Shown here in pieces: positions 8,051-32,853 of a stretch of 37,551 nt of DNA. Origin of the DNA: an uncultured Eisenbergiella sp. (GTDB taxonomy: Bacteria > Bacillota > Clostridia > Lachnospirales > Lachnospiraceae); NCBI GenBank assembly GCA_947631815.1, contig CANRMT010000014.1, positions 1 through 37,551 of the forward strand, read 5' to 3'. The first letter of the stretch is position 1, and every line of letters begins with the position of its first letter. A program made the position numbers and the translations under genes. The notes beneath the pieces are model-generated. The model ran no database searches. It saw only the letters and a program-made list of their open reading frames with translations, and was not told where the DNA came from.

Positions 8051-10183
8051 TTGAAATCCTTCACGCACGAATTTATCCCCGAGTTCCATAAATCCCTCAC
8101 GCCCACCGCCGAGATCAGCGGGTTTCCGGTGCGCCCCGGCATGTTCGACAACAACGGCGCCATCATGCTCCCCGTGGGCGTGAACTTCACCGTGCACACC
8201 CAGGGCGGCACGGCCTGCACCCTGCTCCTGTTTCACCGGGGAGAGGAGGAGCCCTTTGCCCGGCTGCCCTTTCCCGAGGCCTACAAGATCGGCGACGTGT
8301 ATTCCATGATCGTGTTCGGCCTGAACATCGAAGAATTTGAATACGCCTATCAGGTGGACGGCCCCTATGATCCCCAGAAAGGGCTGATCTACGATCCCGC
8401 CAAGGTGCTGCTGGATCCTTATGCTAAGGCCGTGGCGGGCCAGCGGGAATGGGGAGAGAAAAAGCTGGGAAGCTATCACGCCCGCGTGGTGCGCGATGTG
8501 TTCGACTGGGGAGATATGCCGCAGTCCCCACGCAAGATGAGCGACCTGGTCATCTACGAGCTCCACATCCGCGGGTTCACCCGCCACCCCTCCTCGGGCG
8601 TGGCGCATCCCGGCACCTTCTCGGGATTAAAAGAAAAGATCCCCTACTTAAAAGAGCTGGGGATCAACGCGGTGGAGCTGATGCCGATCTTCGAATTTGA
8701 CGAGAACCGCAATTCCCGCACGGTAAACGGGAAAAAGCTCCTGGAATACTGGGGCTATAACACGGTGAGTTTTTTTGCCCCGAATACCAGCTACAACTCC
8801 ACGCCGGAATACAACCGGGAAGGCACGGAGCTGAAGGAGCTGATCAAGACACTGCATGACAGCGGCATCGAAGTGATCCTGGATGTGGTGTTCAACCATA
8901 CGGCGGAAGGAAACGAAAAAGGCCCCACGTTCTGTTTCAAGGGCTTTGACAATAAGGTCTACTACATGCTGACGCCGGAGGGCCATTATTACAATTTCAG
9001 CGGCTGCGGCAATACCCTGAACTGCAACCATCCCGTGGTCCGGCAGATGATCCTGGAATGCCTGCGCTACTGGACCATCAACTACCGGGTGGACGGCTTC
9101 CGCTTCGATCTGGCCAGCATCCTGGGCCGTCAGGAGGACGGCTCTCCCATGAACAACCCGCCGCTTCTGGAGGTGCTTGCCTACGATCCGGTCCTGCGCA
9201 ACGTCAAGCTGATCGCCGAGGCTTGGGACGCAGGCGGCATGTATCAGGTGGGCAGCTTCCCGGCCAGCAAACGCTGGGCGGAGTGGAACGGCCGCTACCG
9301 CGATTCCATCCGCGGGTTCCTGAAAGGGGACTGCTGGCTCTCCTGGGATGCCGCATGGCGCATCGCCGGTTCCGGCGACCTGTACGGCGGCTATTTCGAC
9401 GATCACAACGACAACTACGCCGGTTACAATTCCTGCGTGAATTTCCTGACCTGCCACGACGGCTTCACGCTGTACGATCTGTATTCCTATAATGAAAAGC
9501 ACAATGAGGCCAACGGCTGGAACAATACGGACGGCGCCAACGACAACCGCAGCTGGAACTGCGGCGCGGAGGGCGACACCGATGACCCGGAGGTCCTTTC
9601 CTTACGTTTCCGCATAATCCGCAACGCCTGCGCGGTGCTGATGTGCAGCCGCGGCACGCCCATGTTCTTCGCGGGGGATGAGTTCGGAAATACGCAGTAC
9701 GGCAACAACAACGGCTACTGCCAGGACAACGAGATCTCCTGGCTGGACTGGACCCTTCTGGAGAAAAACAGGGAGCTGTTCGAATTCTTCAAATTCATGA
9801 TCCGATACCGCCAGCGCCACCCGGTCATCCGCAAAAAGCTGCCCAACGCGGTCTGCGGCATGGAGCCCTTACAGGCCCACGACGTCAACGCGGATATCAA
9901 CGATCTTCCTGAGAACACGCGGACCTTCGGCATCAGCTTCGCGGGCTATGACCGGGAGACCGGTCAGGACGATCTGGTCTATGTGGCCGTCAACACTCAT
10001 TGGGAAGACACCGCGATCACGCTTCCCTCCCAGGGGCTGCGCGGCTCCTGGTATTTGAGCGTCAACACCTGGGGCGACGGCGAGGGCCGGTACTGCTACC
10101 CGGAGGGCACGGAGGTACGCATCGACGGCGGATTCGTCATGCGGCCCCGCTCCGTGGCCGTCTTCACAGGACGGCCGCTCTGA
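8051..10183 (+). CDS. glgX: Glycogen debranching enzyme / isoamylase-type GH13
   Basis: MLPVGVNFTVHTQGGTACTLLLF; VIYELHIRGFTRHPSSGV; EVILDVVFNHTAEGN; DGFRFDLASILGR; LIAEAWDAGGMYQVG; NFLTCHDGFTLYDL. TTG start after AAGGAG. Confidence 0.9.
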   Translation: MKSFTHEFIPEFHKSLTPTAEISGFPVRPGMFDNNGAIMLPVGVNFTVHTQGGTACTLLLFHRGEEEPFARLPFPEAYKIGDVYSMIVFGLNIEEFEYAYQVDGPYDPQKGLIYDPAKVLLDPYAKAVAGQREWGEKKLGSYHARVVRDVFDWGDMPQSPRKMSDLVIYELHIRGFTRHPSSGVAHPGTFSGLKEKIPYLKELGINAVELMPIFEFDENRNSRTVNGKKLLEYWGYNTVSFFAPNTSYNSTPEYNREGTELKELIKTLHDSGIEVILDVVFNHTAEGNEKGPTFCFKGFDNKVYYMLTPEGHYYNFSGCGNTLNCNHPVVRQMILECLRYWTINYRVDGFRFDLASILGRQEDGSPMNNPPLLEVLAYDPVLRNVKLIAEAWDAGGMYQVGSFPASKRWAEWNGRYRDSIRGFLKGDCWLSWDAAWRIAGSGDLYGGYFDDHNDNYAGYNSCVNFLTCHDGFTLYDLYSYNEKHNEANGWNNTDGANDNRSWNCGAEGDTDDPEVLSLRFRIIRNACAVLMCSRGTPMFFAGDEFGNTQYGNNNGYCQDNEISWLDWTLLEKNRELFEFFKFMIRYRQRHPVIRKKLPNAVCGMEPLQAHDVNADINDLPENTRTFGISFAGYDRETGQDDLVYVAVNTHWEDTAITLPSQGLRGSWYLSVNTWGDGEGRYCYPEGTEVRIDGGFVMRPRSVAVFTGRPL

Positions 10184-10215
10184 ACGGCGGCGCATAGCCG
10201 CCCCCGTCAAAGAAC

Positions 10216-10419
10216 GGCAGCCGCCCCGGCAGAAAGCGCCGCCCGCGGCCTGTGTGTATTCCATTTTCCCGGACCGTAGAAAAACGCCGGTTCTTAACGA
10301 AGCAAGTCCGCCAGGACGCCGCTGAGTTTAGAACCGCTGCGTTTTTCTCCGAGCGCGAGCGTGTCCGGAAAAGGAATACACACAGGCCGCGGGCGGCGCT
10401 TTCTGCCGGGGCGGCTGCC
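10216..10419. repeat. Long palindromic element 1 (204 bp; 47-bp perfect outer arms; 69-bp family core at 10279-10347)
   Basis: GGCAGCCGCCCCGGCAGAAAGCGCCGCCCGCGGCCTGTGTGTATTCC is the exact reverse complement of the right flank; inner GAAAAACGCCGGTTCT / AGAACCGCTGCGTTTTTC. Confidence 0.95.
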
Positions 10420-10436
10420 ACACTTTGGCAAAGGCC

Positions 10437-11246
10437 TCAGAGCGCCGTCAGGCAACCGCCTTTGGCCTCCACGATGACATCATCCACGGCCAGCCACGCG
10501 CTGTCCGCCGACGGATTATACACCGCTCCGCAGTCCGCCGTGAAGCGCAGACCGCGCAGAAGCTGCAGATAATCGATGATCTCGATGTTGGTGGCGTACC
10601 AGATATCGGGACGGTTCCCCATCAGCCTGCAGAAATCCTCGATCACCTTCCAGTTATTGCGCTCCGTATTCTGATCGAACTCATAGCTGTGTCCCCAGAC
10701 ATACATCAGCTTCAGATACTGCTTCTTCGGGAAATCCGCGAAATACTGTCCGTACTCCATCAGCTTCGGGTCGCTGTGGTGACAGGTGGGATGCCACTCC
10801 ATGGGATTCTCCGGCAGCGCGAAATCCGGCACGCTTTCCACCACGCGGCCGTATGCGATGCCGAGGCTTGCAAACAGCGTTTCGATCTCCTTCGTATAGG
10901 AGCCGTTGGGATAGGCATGTCCCCTGACCACATATCCGGTGAGCTTCTCCAGCCCCCTGCGGTCCTCCAGGATCTCCTCCGCCACCTCGGAAAGCGGACA
11001 TCTGGCGATGGTCGGATGGTGCTGCGTATGGGTCGCCACCTCATGTCCAAGGTACAGCGTGCCGACCTCCTCCGCCAGGACCCGTTCGCCCCGTTCCATC
11101 AGTCCATAGTTCAGATTGAAGGTCCCGCGGATCCCGTACCGGTTGAAGATCTCCACCAGCTTCCGATCCTGCTCCCTCCCATCGTCATAGCTCATGGTGA
11201 GCGCCTTCGCCTTCCCCTGCGGGAAGCAATAGTAAATGTTCTTCAT
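10437..11246 (-). CDS. Polysaccharide deacetylase (NodB-homology/CE4-like)
   Basis: KALTMSYDDGREQDRKLVEIFNRYGIRGTFNLN; LGHEVATHTQHHPTIA; RGHAYPNGSY. Confidence 0.85.
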   Translation of the reverse strand: MKNIYYCFPQGKAKALTMSYDDGREQDRKLVEIFNRYGIRGTFNLNYGLMERGERVLAEEVGTLYLGHEVATHTQHHPTIARCPLSEVAEEILEDRRGLEKLTGYVVRGHAYPNGSYTKEIETLFASLGIAYGRVVESVPDFALPENPMEWHPTCHHSDPKLMEYGQYFADFPKKQYLKLMYVWGHSYEFDQNTERNNWKVIEDFCRLMGNRPDIWYATNIEIIDYLQLLRGLRFTADCGAVYNPSADSAWLAVDDVIVEAKGGCLTAL

Positions 11247-15264: not shown

Positions 15265-15288
15265 CCGGCAGATTCCCTGATCCGGGCG

Positions 15289-15460
15289 GTTCACACCCGA
15301 TAGCCGGTACGAAGGCCCCGGGTTCACGCCCGAATCCGATATGAAGCTCCACTGGATTCACACCCGATAGCTGATACGAAGCTCCACCGGGTTCACGCCC
15401 GATAGCCGGTGCGAAGCTCCACTGGATTCACGCCCGATATCCGGTGCGAAGATCCACCAG
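15289..15460. repeat. Five tandem units (~33-35 bp) spanning the stop codon of the D-2-hydroxyacid dehydrogenase gene
   Basis: Units at 15289, 15322, 15356, 15391 and 15426; consensus RTTCACRCCCGATAGCCGGTRCGAAGCTCCACYGG. Confidence 0.9.
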
Positions 15461-16384
15461 GTTCCCCAGCGGCTCCCCGTTCAGATACCGGCGCAGATTC
15501 TGCGCGAAAAGCTCCACGATCTGCTCCAGCGTCTCCGGCAGCGCGAAGCCGCCCGAGATGTGAGGCGTGATGACGGCATTGGGCGCATCCCAGAGCGGAT
15601 GGGAAGCCGGAAGCGGCTCGGGATCGGTCACATCCAGCGCGGCGCCCGCGATCCGGCTCGCATACAGCGCGTCGCAGAGGGCGTCCGTATCGATGGCACT
15701 GCCCCGCCCCACATTGAGCACTACCGCATTCTTTTTCAGAAGCGCGATGCGCGCCCGGTTCAGCGTGTGCCGGGTGAAGTCATTGCCGGGCAGGCTCATG
15801 GCCACCACATCGGCCCAGGGCAGAAGCCGGTCCAGCTCCTCCATGCCGCACAGCTCTTCCAGCCATTCCGGCTTATCAAAGCTCCGCCGCCGGATACCGG
15901 CCACATGGCAGCCCAGGGCTGCCATTTTTTTCCCGAAGGCGGACCCGATATCCCCGAAACCGACGATGAGCACATTGCTGCCCTCGATCACATCCACAAA
16001 TCCTTCCGATCTCCAGTCATGGGAAAGCTGATTTCGATAATATAAATGGAGCTTCTTGCGCAGCTCGAACAGGCAGCCGATCATATGCTCGGAGATCGCC
16101 AGCCCATAGGCGCCGGTGGCGTTGGCCAAAAGCGCGCCCTCCGGCAGGATCCCCGGTTCGCAGTAGCCCTCCGTTCCCGCGTTATTGAGCTGGATCCACT
16201 TCAGTTCCCCGCACTTTTGCAGCTGGGAAGGCGAACGCAGATTGCCCAGAATGACCTCCGCGTGCCGCAGATCCTCCTCCGTCACCGCGCTTTGCTCCCG
16301 AAAGACAAACGTCCGGCCCGGAGCGGCCTCCCGCAGTTTTTGTTTCTGCCGCTCGTTCAGCGGCGGCGTGACCAGAATATGCAT
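15428..16384 (-). CDS. D-2-hydroxyacid dehydrogenase family oxidoreductase
   Basis: VLIVGFGDIGSAFGKKMAALG; ALLKKNAVVLNVGRGSAIDTDALCDAL; GAALDVTDPEPLPASHPLWDAPNAVITPHISG; start MHILVTPPLNE with RBS. Confidence 0.9.
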   Translation of the reverse strand: MHILVTPPLNERQKQKLREAAPGRTFVFREQSAVTEEDLRHAEVILGNLRSPSQLQKCGELKWIQLNNAGTEGYCEPGILPEGALLANATGAYGLAISEHMIGCLFELRKKLHLYYRNQLSHDWRSEGFVDVIEGSNVLIVGFGDIGSAFGKKMAALGCHVAGIRRRSFDKPEWLEELCGMEELDRLLPWADVVAMSLPGNDFTRHTLNRARIALLKKNAVVLNVGRGSAIDTDALCDALYASRIAGAALDVTDPEPLPASHPLWDAPNAVITPHISGGFALPETLEQIVELFAQNLRRYLNGEPLGNLVDLRTGYRA

Positions 16385-18572: not shown

Positions 18573-18675
18573 GCCGCCGCACTGCACCGGAGTCCGGCAG
18601 TTTTTAGGAACGCACCGTACACCGGAATCCGGCGGTTTTTAAAAACACACCGCGCACCGGAGTCCGGCTACTTTC
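18573..18675. repeat. Three tandem units of ~35 bp between converging AEC transporter and rpe
   Basis: GCCGCCGCACTGCACCGGAGTCCGGCAGTTTTT / AGGAACGCACCGTACACCGGAATCCGGCGGTTTTT / AAAAACACACCGCGCACCGGAGTCCGGCTACTTTC. Confidence 0.85.
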
Positions 18676-18681
18676 AAAAAT

Positions 18682-19359
18682 TCACTGTGCATCCCGCGCA
18701 CGGGAATGCTCCCGCAGGATCCGCATGAATTCGGCGGCATCCTTCTGCGGATCGTGAAATACGGCGGAGCCCGCCACGATCACGTTGGCACCCGCATCCA
18801 GTATCTTTTCCACATTGTCCCGGGTCACACCCCCGTCCACCTCCAGATCGATGGACCTGCCGCTTTTGCGGATCAGCTCCGCGGCCTCCCGGATCCGGTC
18901 GGTGGCGCTGGCGAAATAATGCTGACCGCCGAATCCCGGATGAACGCTCATGATCAGAAGCTGGTCGATCTGATCCAGATATTCCTCCACAGCGTCCACC
19001 GGTGTTTCCGGGCGGATCGTCAGCCCGGCCCGGCAGCCCTGCCGTTGGATCAGCGCGATAGTCTCCCGCACGTCCGCACAGGCCTCCAGATGCACCGTGA
19101 TGATATCCGCGCCTGCCTGTGCGAACGCCTCCACATACCGGTGCGGCTCCACGATCATCAAATGCACATCCAGCACCATATCGCAGGACTTCCGGATGGA
19201 TTCCACCACACAGACCCCATAGGAAAGGGACGGGACAAAAATGCCGTCCATCACATCGATGTGCAGATATTTTGCGCCAGCCCCGCGCACTTCGCTGATC
19301 TGCTCCCCCAGCCGCATGATATCCGCGGCCAGGATCGAAGGGGCCAAAATATTTTCCAT
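18682..19359 (-). CDS. rpe: Ribulose-phosphate 3-epimerase
   Basis: LAPSILAADIMRLGEQI; LHIDVMDGIFVPSLSYG; DVHLMIVEPHRYVEAFAQAGADIITVHLEA; MSVHPGFGGQHYFASA; DLEVDGGVTRDNVEKILDAGANVIVAGSAVF. Confidence 0.95.
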   Translation of the reverse strand: MENILAPSILAADIMRLGEQISEVRGAGAKYLHIDVMDGIFVPSLSYGVCVVESIRKSCDMVLDVHLMIVEPHRYVEAFAQAGADIITVHLEACADVRETIALIQRQGCRAGLTIRPETPVDAVEEYLDQIDQLLIMSVHPGFGGQHYFASATDRIREAAELIRKSGRSIDLEVDGGVTRDNVEKILDAGANVIVAGSAVFHDPQKDAAEFMRILREHSRARDAQ

Positions 19360-19522
19360 AGAGAACCTCTTTTATTCCTTTGTCGCCGGTAAGGACGAGA
19401 AACGGCATGCGCATTCCGCCACTCGCCCGCCGTCCATATTCTGTCGTACACTTATTTATGTATCACATTTCCTATAACCCGGTCAAGCCCTTTCCCACTC
19501 CCGCCCGCAGGAAACCGCCGCC

Positions 19523-19700
19523 CGGCCTGGGTCAGCGCACGGGGAGGGGATGGGGATTCTGCAGACACGCTTTCGCTTCGTGAAAAACGCAGCGGTTCTA
19601 AGCTCAGTTTCGCCTTGTCAGGCTCACTTCGCTAAGAACCGGCGTTTTTCAAGAGTCTGCATGAATTCCCCATCCCCTCCACGCGTGCTGACCCAGGCCG
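19523..19700. repeat. Long palindromic element 2 (178 bp; same 69-bp core family at 19582-19650, opposite orientation to element 1)
   Basis: CGGCCTGGGTCAGC...GGAGGGGATGGGG pairs with CCCCATCCCCTCC...GCTGACCCAGGCCG; core GAAAAACGCAGCGGTTCTAAG...AAGAACCGGCGTTTTTC. Confidence 0.93.
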
Positions 19701-19770
19701 ATCCGAGATTTACCTTCATAATAGAAAATAGAACCTCATATAGATAGTAAAAAATGTCAGGAATTCTACT

Positions 19771-30917: not shown

Positions 30918-32030
30918 TCAGTCCCCGCTCCCATACACGAAATCATAGAGCATCTGCGCGCCCTCCGCCAGCCGCGGGGCCGGACGGGAAAGCTCGTCGT
31001 TCTGAAGGTTCAGGATCGCTTTGTTCTGCACGGCGGTGATGTTTTCCCAGCCGGAACGGCCCAGGATCTCCTCCTCCGGCGTAGGGCCCTCCCCGTAATA
31101 CTGGGTAATGGTCAAAATATAATCCGGATCGCGCTCCAGCACCTGCTCCTCGGAGACCTCCGCCCAACCCTCCACATCCGCGAAACAGTTGGTCAGACCC
31201 AGCATGCCCGCGATCTCATCCATGAAGGTGTGGCTTCCAGCGGCCCAGAGCCCCCACTGCAGCGGGGATACCTCAAAGTAGATCGTCTTGCCGCTTCCTT
31301 CTCCGGCCTTTTCCTGCAGATCCGCAAAGGTGCTCTTCATGCCGTCGATCACCTCAGCCGCCTCCGCGTCCTTTCCCATCAGCGCGCCGATGAGCTCGAT
31401 GGCCGTATAGACGCCCGCAATGTCCTGCGCGTCGCTGACCACCACATGTACACCGGCCGCCTCCAGCTGCGCCACCTGCTCCTCGGTCTGCGCCATGGTG
31501 CTCATCAGAAGCACCTGCGGCTCCAGAGAAAGGATCTGCTCGATATTGGTGTCCGCGCCGGACTGGACGGAGGGAACCTCCAGAACCTTGGCCGGATAAT
31601 TGCAGTATTCTCCGCGTCCCACCAGCGCGTCCCCCGCGCCGATGGCATAGAGGATCTCACAGTCAGAAGCGGTGAGCGCCACCACCTTCTCGGCGGGCTC
31701 CTCCAGCGTGATCTCCCGGCCCGTCATGTCCATGACCGTGATCGGCCCGTTTTCCGCCGTCTGCGCGGATCCGGCTTCTCCCGCCTGTCCGGCTTCCTCC
31801 TGTGCGGACTCCGTTTTCGCCGCCTGTGCAGATCCTTCCGCGGATCCGTTCTCCTCCGCCTGCGCGGATCCGTCCGCGGATCCGTTCTCTTCCGCCTGCG
31901 CGGCTTCGCTCACCGCCGCCTGGGAAGCAGTCTCCGGCGCCGTGCCGGAACCGTTTTGTGTGCCGCAGGCGGTCAGAGCCGCCAGCAGCGCGGCGATCAG
32001 GATCGCCGCCAACCGTCTTGTGCGTTTCAT
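30918..32030 (-). CDS. btuF: Lipoprotein periplasmic-binding-like ABC substrate-binding protein (BtuF-like)
   Basis: Lipobox LLAALTAC; ITVMDMTGREITLEEPAEKVVALTASDCEILYAIGAGDALVGRGEYCNYP; first gene behind the cobalamin riboswitch. Confidence 0.88.
   Translation of the reverse strand: MKRTRRLAAILIAALLAALTACGTQNGSGTAPETASQAAVSEAAQAEENGSADGSAQAEENGSAEGSAQAAKTESAQEEAGQAGEAGSAQTAENGPITVMDMTGREITLEEPAEKVVALTASDCEILYAIGAGDALVGRGEYCNYPAKVLEVPSVQSGADTNIEQILSLEPQVLLMSTMAQTEEQVAQLEAAGVHVVVSDAQDIAGVYTAIELIGALMGKDAEAAEVIDGMKSTFADLQEKAGEGSGKTIYFEVSPLQWGLWAAGSHTFMDEIAGMLGLTNCFADVEGWAEVSEEQVLERDPDYILTITQYYGEGPTPEEEILGRSGWENITAVQNKAILNLQNDELSRPAPRLAEGAQMLYDFVYGSGD
31831..31902. repeat. Two 36-bp in-frame tandem units inside btuF
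   Basis: GATCCTTCCGCGGATCCGTTCTCCTCCGCCTGCGCG / GATCCGTCCGCGGATCCGTTCTCTTCCGCCTGCGCG (2 mismatches). Confidence 0.9.
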
Positions 32031-32349: not shown

Positions 32350-32530
32350 CAGAAGTGTTTCATACGCAGACAGGTCTCCCGGCTTGGCTTCATCCTACTT
32401 GGGCGCCTTCCCACCTTGCGGCAGTGACTTGATTGCCCGTTCGTCAGCTTCACGGTTACTGGGATAGCCCGGAAGTTTCATCCGATTCCCTCAACGCATC
32501 AGCGTTGGCGCCTCCCGGCGCAAAAGCGTA
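32350..32530 (-). ncRNA. Cobalamin riboswitch
   Basis: Minus strand: GAGGGAATCGGATGAAACTTCCGGGCTATCCCAGTAACCGTGAAG...CACTGCC...GGGAAGGCGCCCAAGTAGGATGAAGCCAAGCCGGGAGACCTGTC. Confidence 0.93.
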
Positions 32531-32608: not shown

Positions 32609-32853
32609 CGCCGTGACACCCCGCCCCGGAAGGACGGCAGACGTAGATCGCGGTGCCTTTGTGTCCGAATGCATCGTTTATCCGCCAGCCGTCCATTTGG
32701 GCCCGTGCCGGAAAATACGGGATGTCTGAGCGAAGCGAGTTTCCCGTATTTTCCGGCAGCTTCGGGCACAAACGGATGGCTGACGGATGATGCATCCGGA
32801 CGCAGGGCACGCGATCTACGTCTGCCGTCCTCCCGGGGCGGGGTGTCACGGCG
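32609..32853. repeat. Long palindromic element 3 (~245 bp, imperfect, ~120-bp arms, apex TGAGCGAAGCGAGTTT)
   Basis: CGCCGTGACACCCCGCCCCGGAAGGACGGCAGACGTAGATCGCG pairs with the reverse complement of CGCGATCTACGTCTGCCGTCCTCCCGGGGCGGGGTGTCACGGCG; apex stem CGGAAAATACGGGA/TCCCGTATTTTCCG. Confidence 0.95.

Follow-up and report, generated by a model that had tools for sequence, protein, structure and literature searches.

The palindrome at 10216-10419 raises the question of how a hairpin can keep one conserved centre from locus to locus while carrying long arms that belong to each locus. We examined it in a 37,551-nt stretch of an uncultured Eisenbergiella sp. (contig CANRMT010000014.1; hereafter the window, from the genome that we label G000 in comparisons). 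This first copy lies between convergent glgX (8051-10183, + strand), whose best named relatives are in rabbit-gut Eisenbergiella-labelled MAGs and other Lachnospiraceae, and a polysaccharide deacetylase gene (10437-11246, − strand). An earlier note had described the outer 47 bp as an exact inverted repeat, and the reverse complement was confirmed; the region folds with −192 kcal/mol (z = −16.8), a value that none of 200 shuffles equalled. The core does recur on the other strand at 19582-19650, with 83% identity. The description of the core as a 69-bp unit in two copies stood as to sharing and recurrence and failed as to extent and number, since the conserved unit really spans about 120 bp and at least 66 copies are found in the genome with a covariance model.

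Anatomy and distribution of the element

The conserved unit comprises CATTCCATTTTCCCGGACCGTTA, the apex and TCGAGCGCGAGCGTGTCCGGAAAAGGAAT. At its tip is a hairpin in which a two-base CT bulge is conserved; it also has a tandem G.A/A.G internal loop and an A-tract/stem/T-tract layout, and is flanked by imperfectly paired shoulders of about 25 bp per side, directly outside which lie the arms. At 22 of the 41 consensus pairs both sides have changed with pairing kept, which indicates that the folded form matters. An Rfam search at the gathering score returned nothing credible over the element, a cobalamin riboswitch being the sole match in the window.

Table 1. Features of the window and coreless one-arm sites in relatives
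Feature	Position or comparison	Strand	Remarks
Left arm, copy 1	10216-10262	.	GGCAGCCGCCCCGGCAGAAAGCGCCGCCCGCGGCCTGTGTGTATTCC; exact reverse complement of 10373-10419; fold
Right arm, copy 1	10373-10419	.	perfect 47-bp inverted repeat with 10216-10262
Conserved element (shoulders and apex), copy 1	10255-10376	+	covariance model R1, 141.9 bits, E 5e-30
Apex hairpin core, copy 1	10279-10348	+	conserved CT bulge and G.A/A.G internal loop
Conserved element, copy 2	19553-19674	−	R1, 116.6 bits; shoulder subfamily GCAGACTCTT...ACGAAGCG
Arm, copy 2	19512-19556	.	82% complementary to 19667-19711
Other arm, copy 2	19667-19711	.	pairs with 19512-19556
Left arm, second-family hairpin	32609-32652	.	inverted-repeat listing
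Conserved apex, second family	32680-32786	.	GCCGGAAAATACGGGATGTCTGAGCGAAGCGAGTTTCCCGTATTTTCCGGC; matches in three genomes
Right arm, second-family hairpin	32810-32853	.	inverted-repeat listing
Coreless one-arm site	G000:C56 vs L255		23 bp flank-like
Coreless one-arm site	G000:C28 vs L271		22 bp flank-like
Coreless one-arm site	G011:C8 vs L273		53 bp flank-like
Coreless one-arm site	G011:C5:120913 vs L277 and L314
Coreless one-arm site	G000:C11 vs L256 and L284
Coreless one-arm site	G000:C115 vs L260
Coreless one-arm site	G000:C36 vs L270		11 bp, in loop of ordinary hairpin

A DNA search of the genome with copy 1 yielded at least 40 matches among 64 candidates. With the covariance model, trained on 29 copies, the counts were 66 for G000, 25 for G009 and 68 for G011, each of them a lower bound. 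The family is thus present in three of the 13 genus genomes, the flanks of G009 and G011 being about 91% identical to those of G000, and none was found in the 10 other congener genomes. Only weak matches occurred elsewhere among 397 genomes of the bacterial family. The apex CGGTTCTAAGCTCA..CGCTAAGAACCGGCG lies within hairpins of other Lachnospiraceae genera (L335 and L339 in G052, L336 in G051), and at least two of the weak matches, L335 and L339, retain it within long palindromes. We found no literature on Lachnospiraceae palindromic elements of such kind.

The arms are specific to their loci. Own inverted arms accompany 149 of the 150 copies, with a median length of 50 bp and 96% matching (38 are perfect); the arm score has a median of 44 for a copy's own arms versus 3 for arms taken from different copies (99th percentile 13). 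The copies therefore do not all share the same arms, a possibility raised in the earlier note, and its pairing of a shared core with locus-specific arms holds. Some relatedness between loci nonetheless exists, which corrects the note's statement that the long arms are not shared: many contain a degenerate GGCGGCGCTTTCTGCCGGGGC stretch, with 92 non-orthologous pairs reaching at least 32 bits versus 2 with reversed arms.

The window also holds a hairpin of an unrelated family of the same design. Its apex has 23 matches in G000, 17 in G011, 7 in G009 and none in G008 and G012; long arms were present in 8 of 11 copies tested, the mismatched-arm control being less clean than for the first family.

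Arm changes, core inversion and the proposed birth of arms in sister species

Fifty-three orthologous pairs share both flanks; pairs overlap where three species share a copy, and their counts are not fully independent. Distances and counts were obtained with our own scripts on fetched stretches of draft MAGs. The arms are inherited across the pairs and differ by 134 two-sided complementary changes, whereas independent evolution of the arms would give about 33 two-sided changes, complementary or not. A further 226 arm changes are one-sided, indicating that homogenisation is incomplete. Transitions and transversions number 68:66 among the two-sided changes; the corresponding flank ratio is 574:381 (Fisher p about 0.05). 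Transversions make up half of the two-sided changes, a larger share than in the flanks, which speaks against a stepwise route by way of G-U pairs. Indels that are symmetric and span several bases also occur (G000:C95 versus G011:C34). Divergence is 12.4% in the arms versus 9.5% in the flanks; cores of paralogous copies retain 85% identity.

In 20 of the 53 pairs the core lies in opposite orientation between conserved arms. Long inverted repeats can be assembled wrongly, and completeness is 95% for G000 and 68% for G009. The exact arm run reaches at least 54 bp in 7 of the 20 inverted pairs and falls below 54 bp in the other 13. At copy 2, whose core is flipped between the same arms in the G009 orthologue (C39), the runs are only 14 and 17 bp. 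Misassembly can thus not explain all inversions and is unlikely to underlie that of copy 2. The copy 1 core is likewise inverted relative to its G011 orthologue. At this locus the outer GGGGCGGCTGCC of the right arm corresponds to ordinary right flank outside the palindrome in G011; the outer arm is the inverted right flank in G000 and the inverted left flank in G011. Elsewhere, arm-like sequence stands in tandem outside the element in two species (G000:C3:37775 and G009:C183:1889), where the arm has seemingly been drawn into a short tandem array.

For copies without an orthologue, the flanks were located in other genomes by concatenated queries and then read. Seven coreless sites (Table 1) have a common structure: the outer 11 to 53 bp of one arm are ordinary flank in the relative, the second arm reads as an inverted copy of this flank-like arm, and in most cases no more than 7 bp separate the outer end of the other arm from the point at which target sequence resumes (15 bp at L260). 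Overlaps at coreless sites range from none to 9 bp and are microhomology-like. The inner 20-40 bp of the arms are usually not target-derived. We set aside four further sites at which the relative has part of one arm (L281, L358, L360, L364), all too diverged to count, and rejected G008 as a polarising outgroup because its intergenic DNA is too diverged.

Taken singly, a coreless site would fit gain as well as deletion. The cores of G011:C5:120913 and G000:C11:4082 exist in one species only and are absent from both congeners, which favours gain at these two sites. Deletions do occur at such sites, as L259 and L278, two candidate right-arm ancestral sites, retain the 3' end of the core and had to be reclassified as deletion remnants. 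A perfect 35-bp hairpin without core at L279 (G000:C8, 42500-44000), where G011 and G009 carry the full element, indicates that palindromes can persist without the core.

The reading that we favour, and hold somewhat better than evenly probable, is that the element is a dispersed, non-autonomous hairpin of REPIN/MITE-like type: fold-back template switching would copy part of its arms from the target and subsequently homogenise them. A new copy would arrive as a core with a short inner arm. At insertion or the next replication, the new strand would fold back on the core hairpin, use the target flank next to it as template for an inverted outer arm, and then return to the target. Later arm-to-arm template switching would keep the arms complementary, transversions and symmetric indels included, and would sometimes invert the core. 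Template switching between inverted repeats homogenises arms and inverts spacers (PMC8604942), and makes perfect stems in one step (PMC8794818). The proposal in the earlier note that adjacent sequence is copied into an arm by fold-back or template-switch synthesis gains from the coreless sites with one flank-derived arm, the symmetric changes and the core inversions; it is curtailed by the origin of the inner arm segments and by several sites at which the relative has neither arm. The novel point, so far shown only in part, is the apparent copying of target flank into an arm at about the time of insertion.

Alternatively, an ordinary MITE/REPIN-like palindrome may insert whole, its arms then changing through long divergence and arm-to-arm conversion, with coreless relatives arising by later deletion. 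This scheme, which we consider unlikely on balance, would account for the degenerate, ancestral motif common to the arms and for the deletion remnants L259 and L278. Both arms are missing in the relative at L262, L355 and L367, as expected if a whole palindrome was inserted or deleted, and deletion could in principle have left the 11-53 bp kept in relatives as scars. Deletion, however, does not predict that the breakpoint should match the outer end of the other arm, as it does at most one-arm sites. Arms diverge about as fast as flanks and the cores remain 85% identical, so that divergence would hardly suffice unless the core is constrained. A donor with the same arms was also not found: when the three genomes were searched for 8 copies, most of which have relatives with neither arm, only the copies themselves, their orthologues and one 25-bp match were returned.

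A bolder form of the fold-back reading, which we regard as rather doubtful, would make the core a self-templating mobile hairpin, in which, once the core is joined to the target, a dedicated, strand-specific fold-back synthesis primes the copying of 20-50 bp of target flank as an inverted arm and builds a new, site-specific stem at each insertion. The ancestral arm lies on the same side of the core in the seven clear one-arm sites (the weaker L356 is opposite), a hint of directionality. To our knowledge, such installation by self-templating fold-back would be a mode of transposition undescribed in bacteria.

Genomic setting and possible selection on the hairpin

Gene context was assigned to 128 copies from codon-scored frames, which replaced a first, crude ORF context misled by GC-rich shadow frames. 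Neighbouring genes are convergent at 31 copies, tandem at 76 and divergent at 21, and at least one gene runs into the element at 107 of the 128. The outer ends of the arms lie at a median of 13 nt from gene 3' ends or stop codons and 108 nt from 5' ends. Copies often occupy places where relatives bear an ordinary terminator-like hairpin, as in the glgX-deacetylase gap of G008, and in coreless relatives a stable hairpin is commoner at the junction (z −1.44) than at a distance of 250 nt (z −0.2; p = 0.0007). We interpret these hairpin-bearing sites, together with the proximity to stop codons, as a sign that many copies probably also serve as transcription terminators, a side role. A simple intrinsic-terminator scan of 9800-10800 found none, but GAAAAACGC..GCGTTTTTC surround the inner stem of the core and the majority of copies adjoin gene 3' ends.

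This setting bears on the idea that a long hairpin is needed as RNA or DNA, for termination or for protecting mRNA ends, and that compensatory substitutions preserve it, with a recognised apex at its centre. The position of the outer ends, the inbound genes and the covarying A-tract/stem/T-tract apex agree with it; nonetheless, we judge it quite improbable as the source of the arms. Two-sided changes are not enriched in the transitions compatible with G-U pairing, and this weakens the earlier note's suggestion of selection for a long hairpin, as do the symmetric multi-base indels. Moreover, copies between divergent genes include copy 2 of the window, perfect arms of up to 77 bp exceed what a terminator requires, and the perfect hairpin at L279 has no core. 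We consider it very unlikely that the element is a site-specific invertible one, in which a recombinase acting on shoulders or arms as recombination sites flips the core for phase variation: this would explain the flipped cores between kept arms, but arms that differ at each locus offer no common site and inversion alone cannot make flank-derived arms.

A long perfect hairpin between bacterial genes is commonly read as a terminator or as a fixed repeat. The close sister species provide about 50 pairs that serve as natural experiments, from which one can read directly how palindromes arise, lengthen, are repaired and flip. Fold-back copying followed by homogenisation would link mobile hairpins to template-switch mutagenesis and explain locus-specific stems, and would carry the warning that compensatory changes in a hairpin need not mean selection on RNA.

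Candidate partners, known systems and other repeats

A search for RAYT/Y1_Tnp (PF01797) returned no match in G000, none in G009 (68% complete), 5 in G011 and 4 in G008, which is without the element; absence from G000 led us to discard this transposase as the partner. Reverse transcriptases were rejected because they are found both with and without the element. SbcCD cleaves hairpins, and its loss was considered as a permissive cause and dismissed, as frames for SbcC and SbcD are present in G000 and G011 and one for SbcD in G009. The SbcD proteins of L155, L156 and L157 (G000:C6, G009:C172 and G011:C10) carry a low-complexity, Ala/Glu/Asp-rich insertion of variable length that is absent from G008; a link to the hairpin element is conceivable.

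Among known systems, REPINs, the REP doublets associated with RAYT (PMC3116915), resemble the element as short intergenic hairpin repeats that are non-autonomous and occur in many copies in few related species. They differ in having conserved, paired REP ends around a spacer, whereas here the apex is conserved and the arms vary by locus. Bacterial MITEs are likewise non-coding, palindromic and short, with insertions of about 200-250 bp; here, in contrast, no family-wide terminal inverted repeat exists, the outer arms being locus-specific and the inner shoulders alone shared, and no constant target-site duplication was seen. Template-switch hairpins (PMC8604942, PMC8794818) share reverse-complement copying that gives perfect arms, symmetric changes and inverted spacers. 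Those are described as mutational events scattered over yeast genes and RNA genes, whereas ours is a dispersed family with a conserved 120-bp spacer and candidate arm birth from flanking DNA. Short palindromes of Volvox (PMC2670323) and yeast GC clusters (PMC4478555) are proliferating hairpins with no known transposase, but are organellar, with short, family-specific stems. The coding palindromes of Nematomorpha (PMC6649704) also have no known transposase, and their long perfect arms are believed to be kept so by conversion; they differ in being organellar and in having no shared apex.

Other repeats were noted in the window. Two short arrays of 35-bp direct repeats, unrelated in sequence and with 3-4 copies each, lie at 15269-15464 and 18584-18691. 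Imperfect 36-bp repeats at 31747-31908 fall within a Peripla_BP_2 frame, that of a periplasmic binding protein, upstream of which the cobalamin riboswitch is located on the minus strand (32352-32530).
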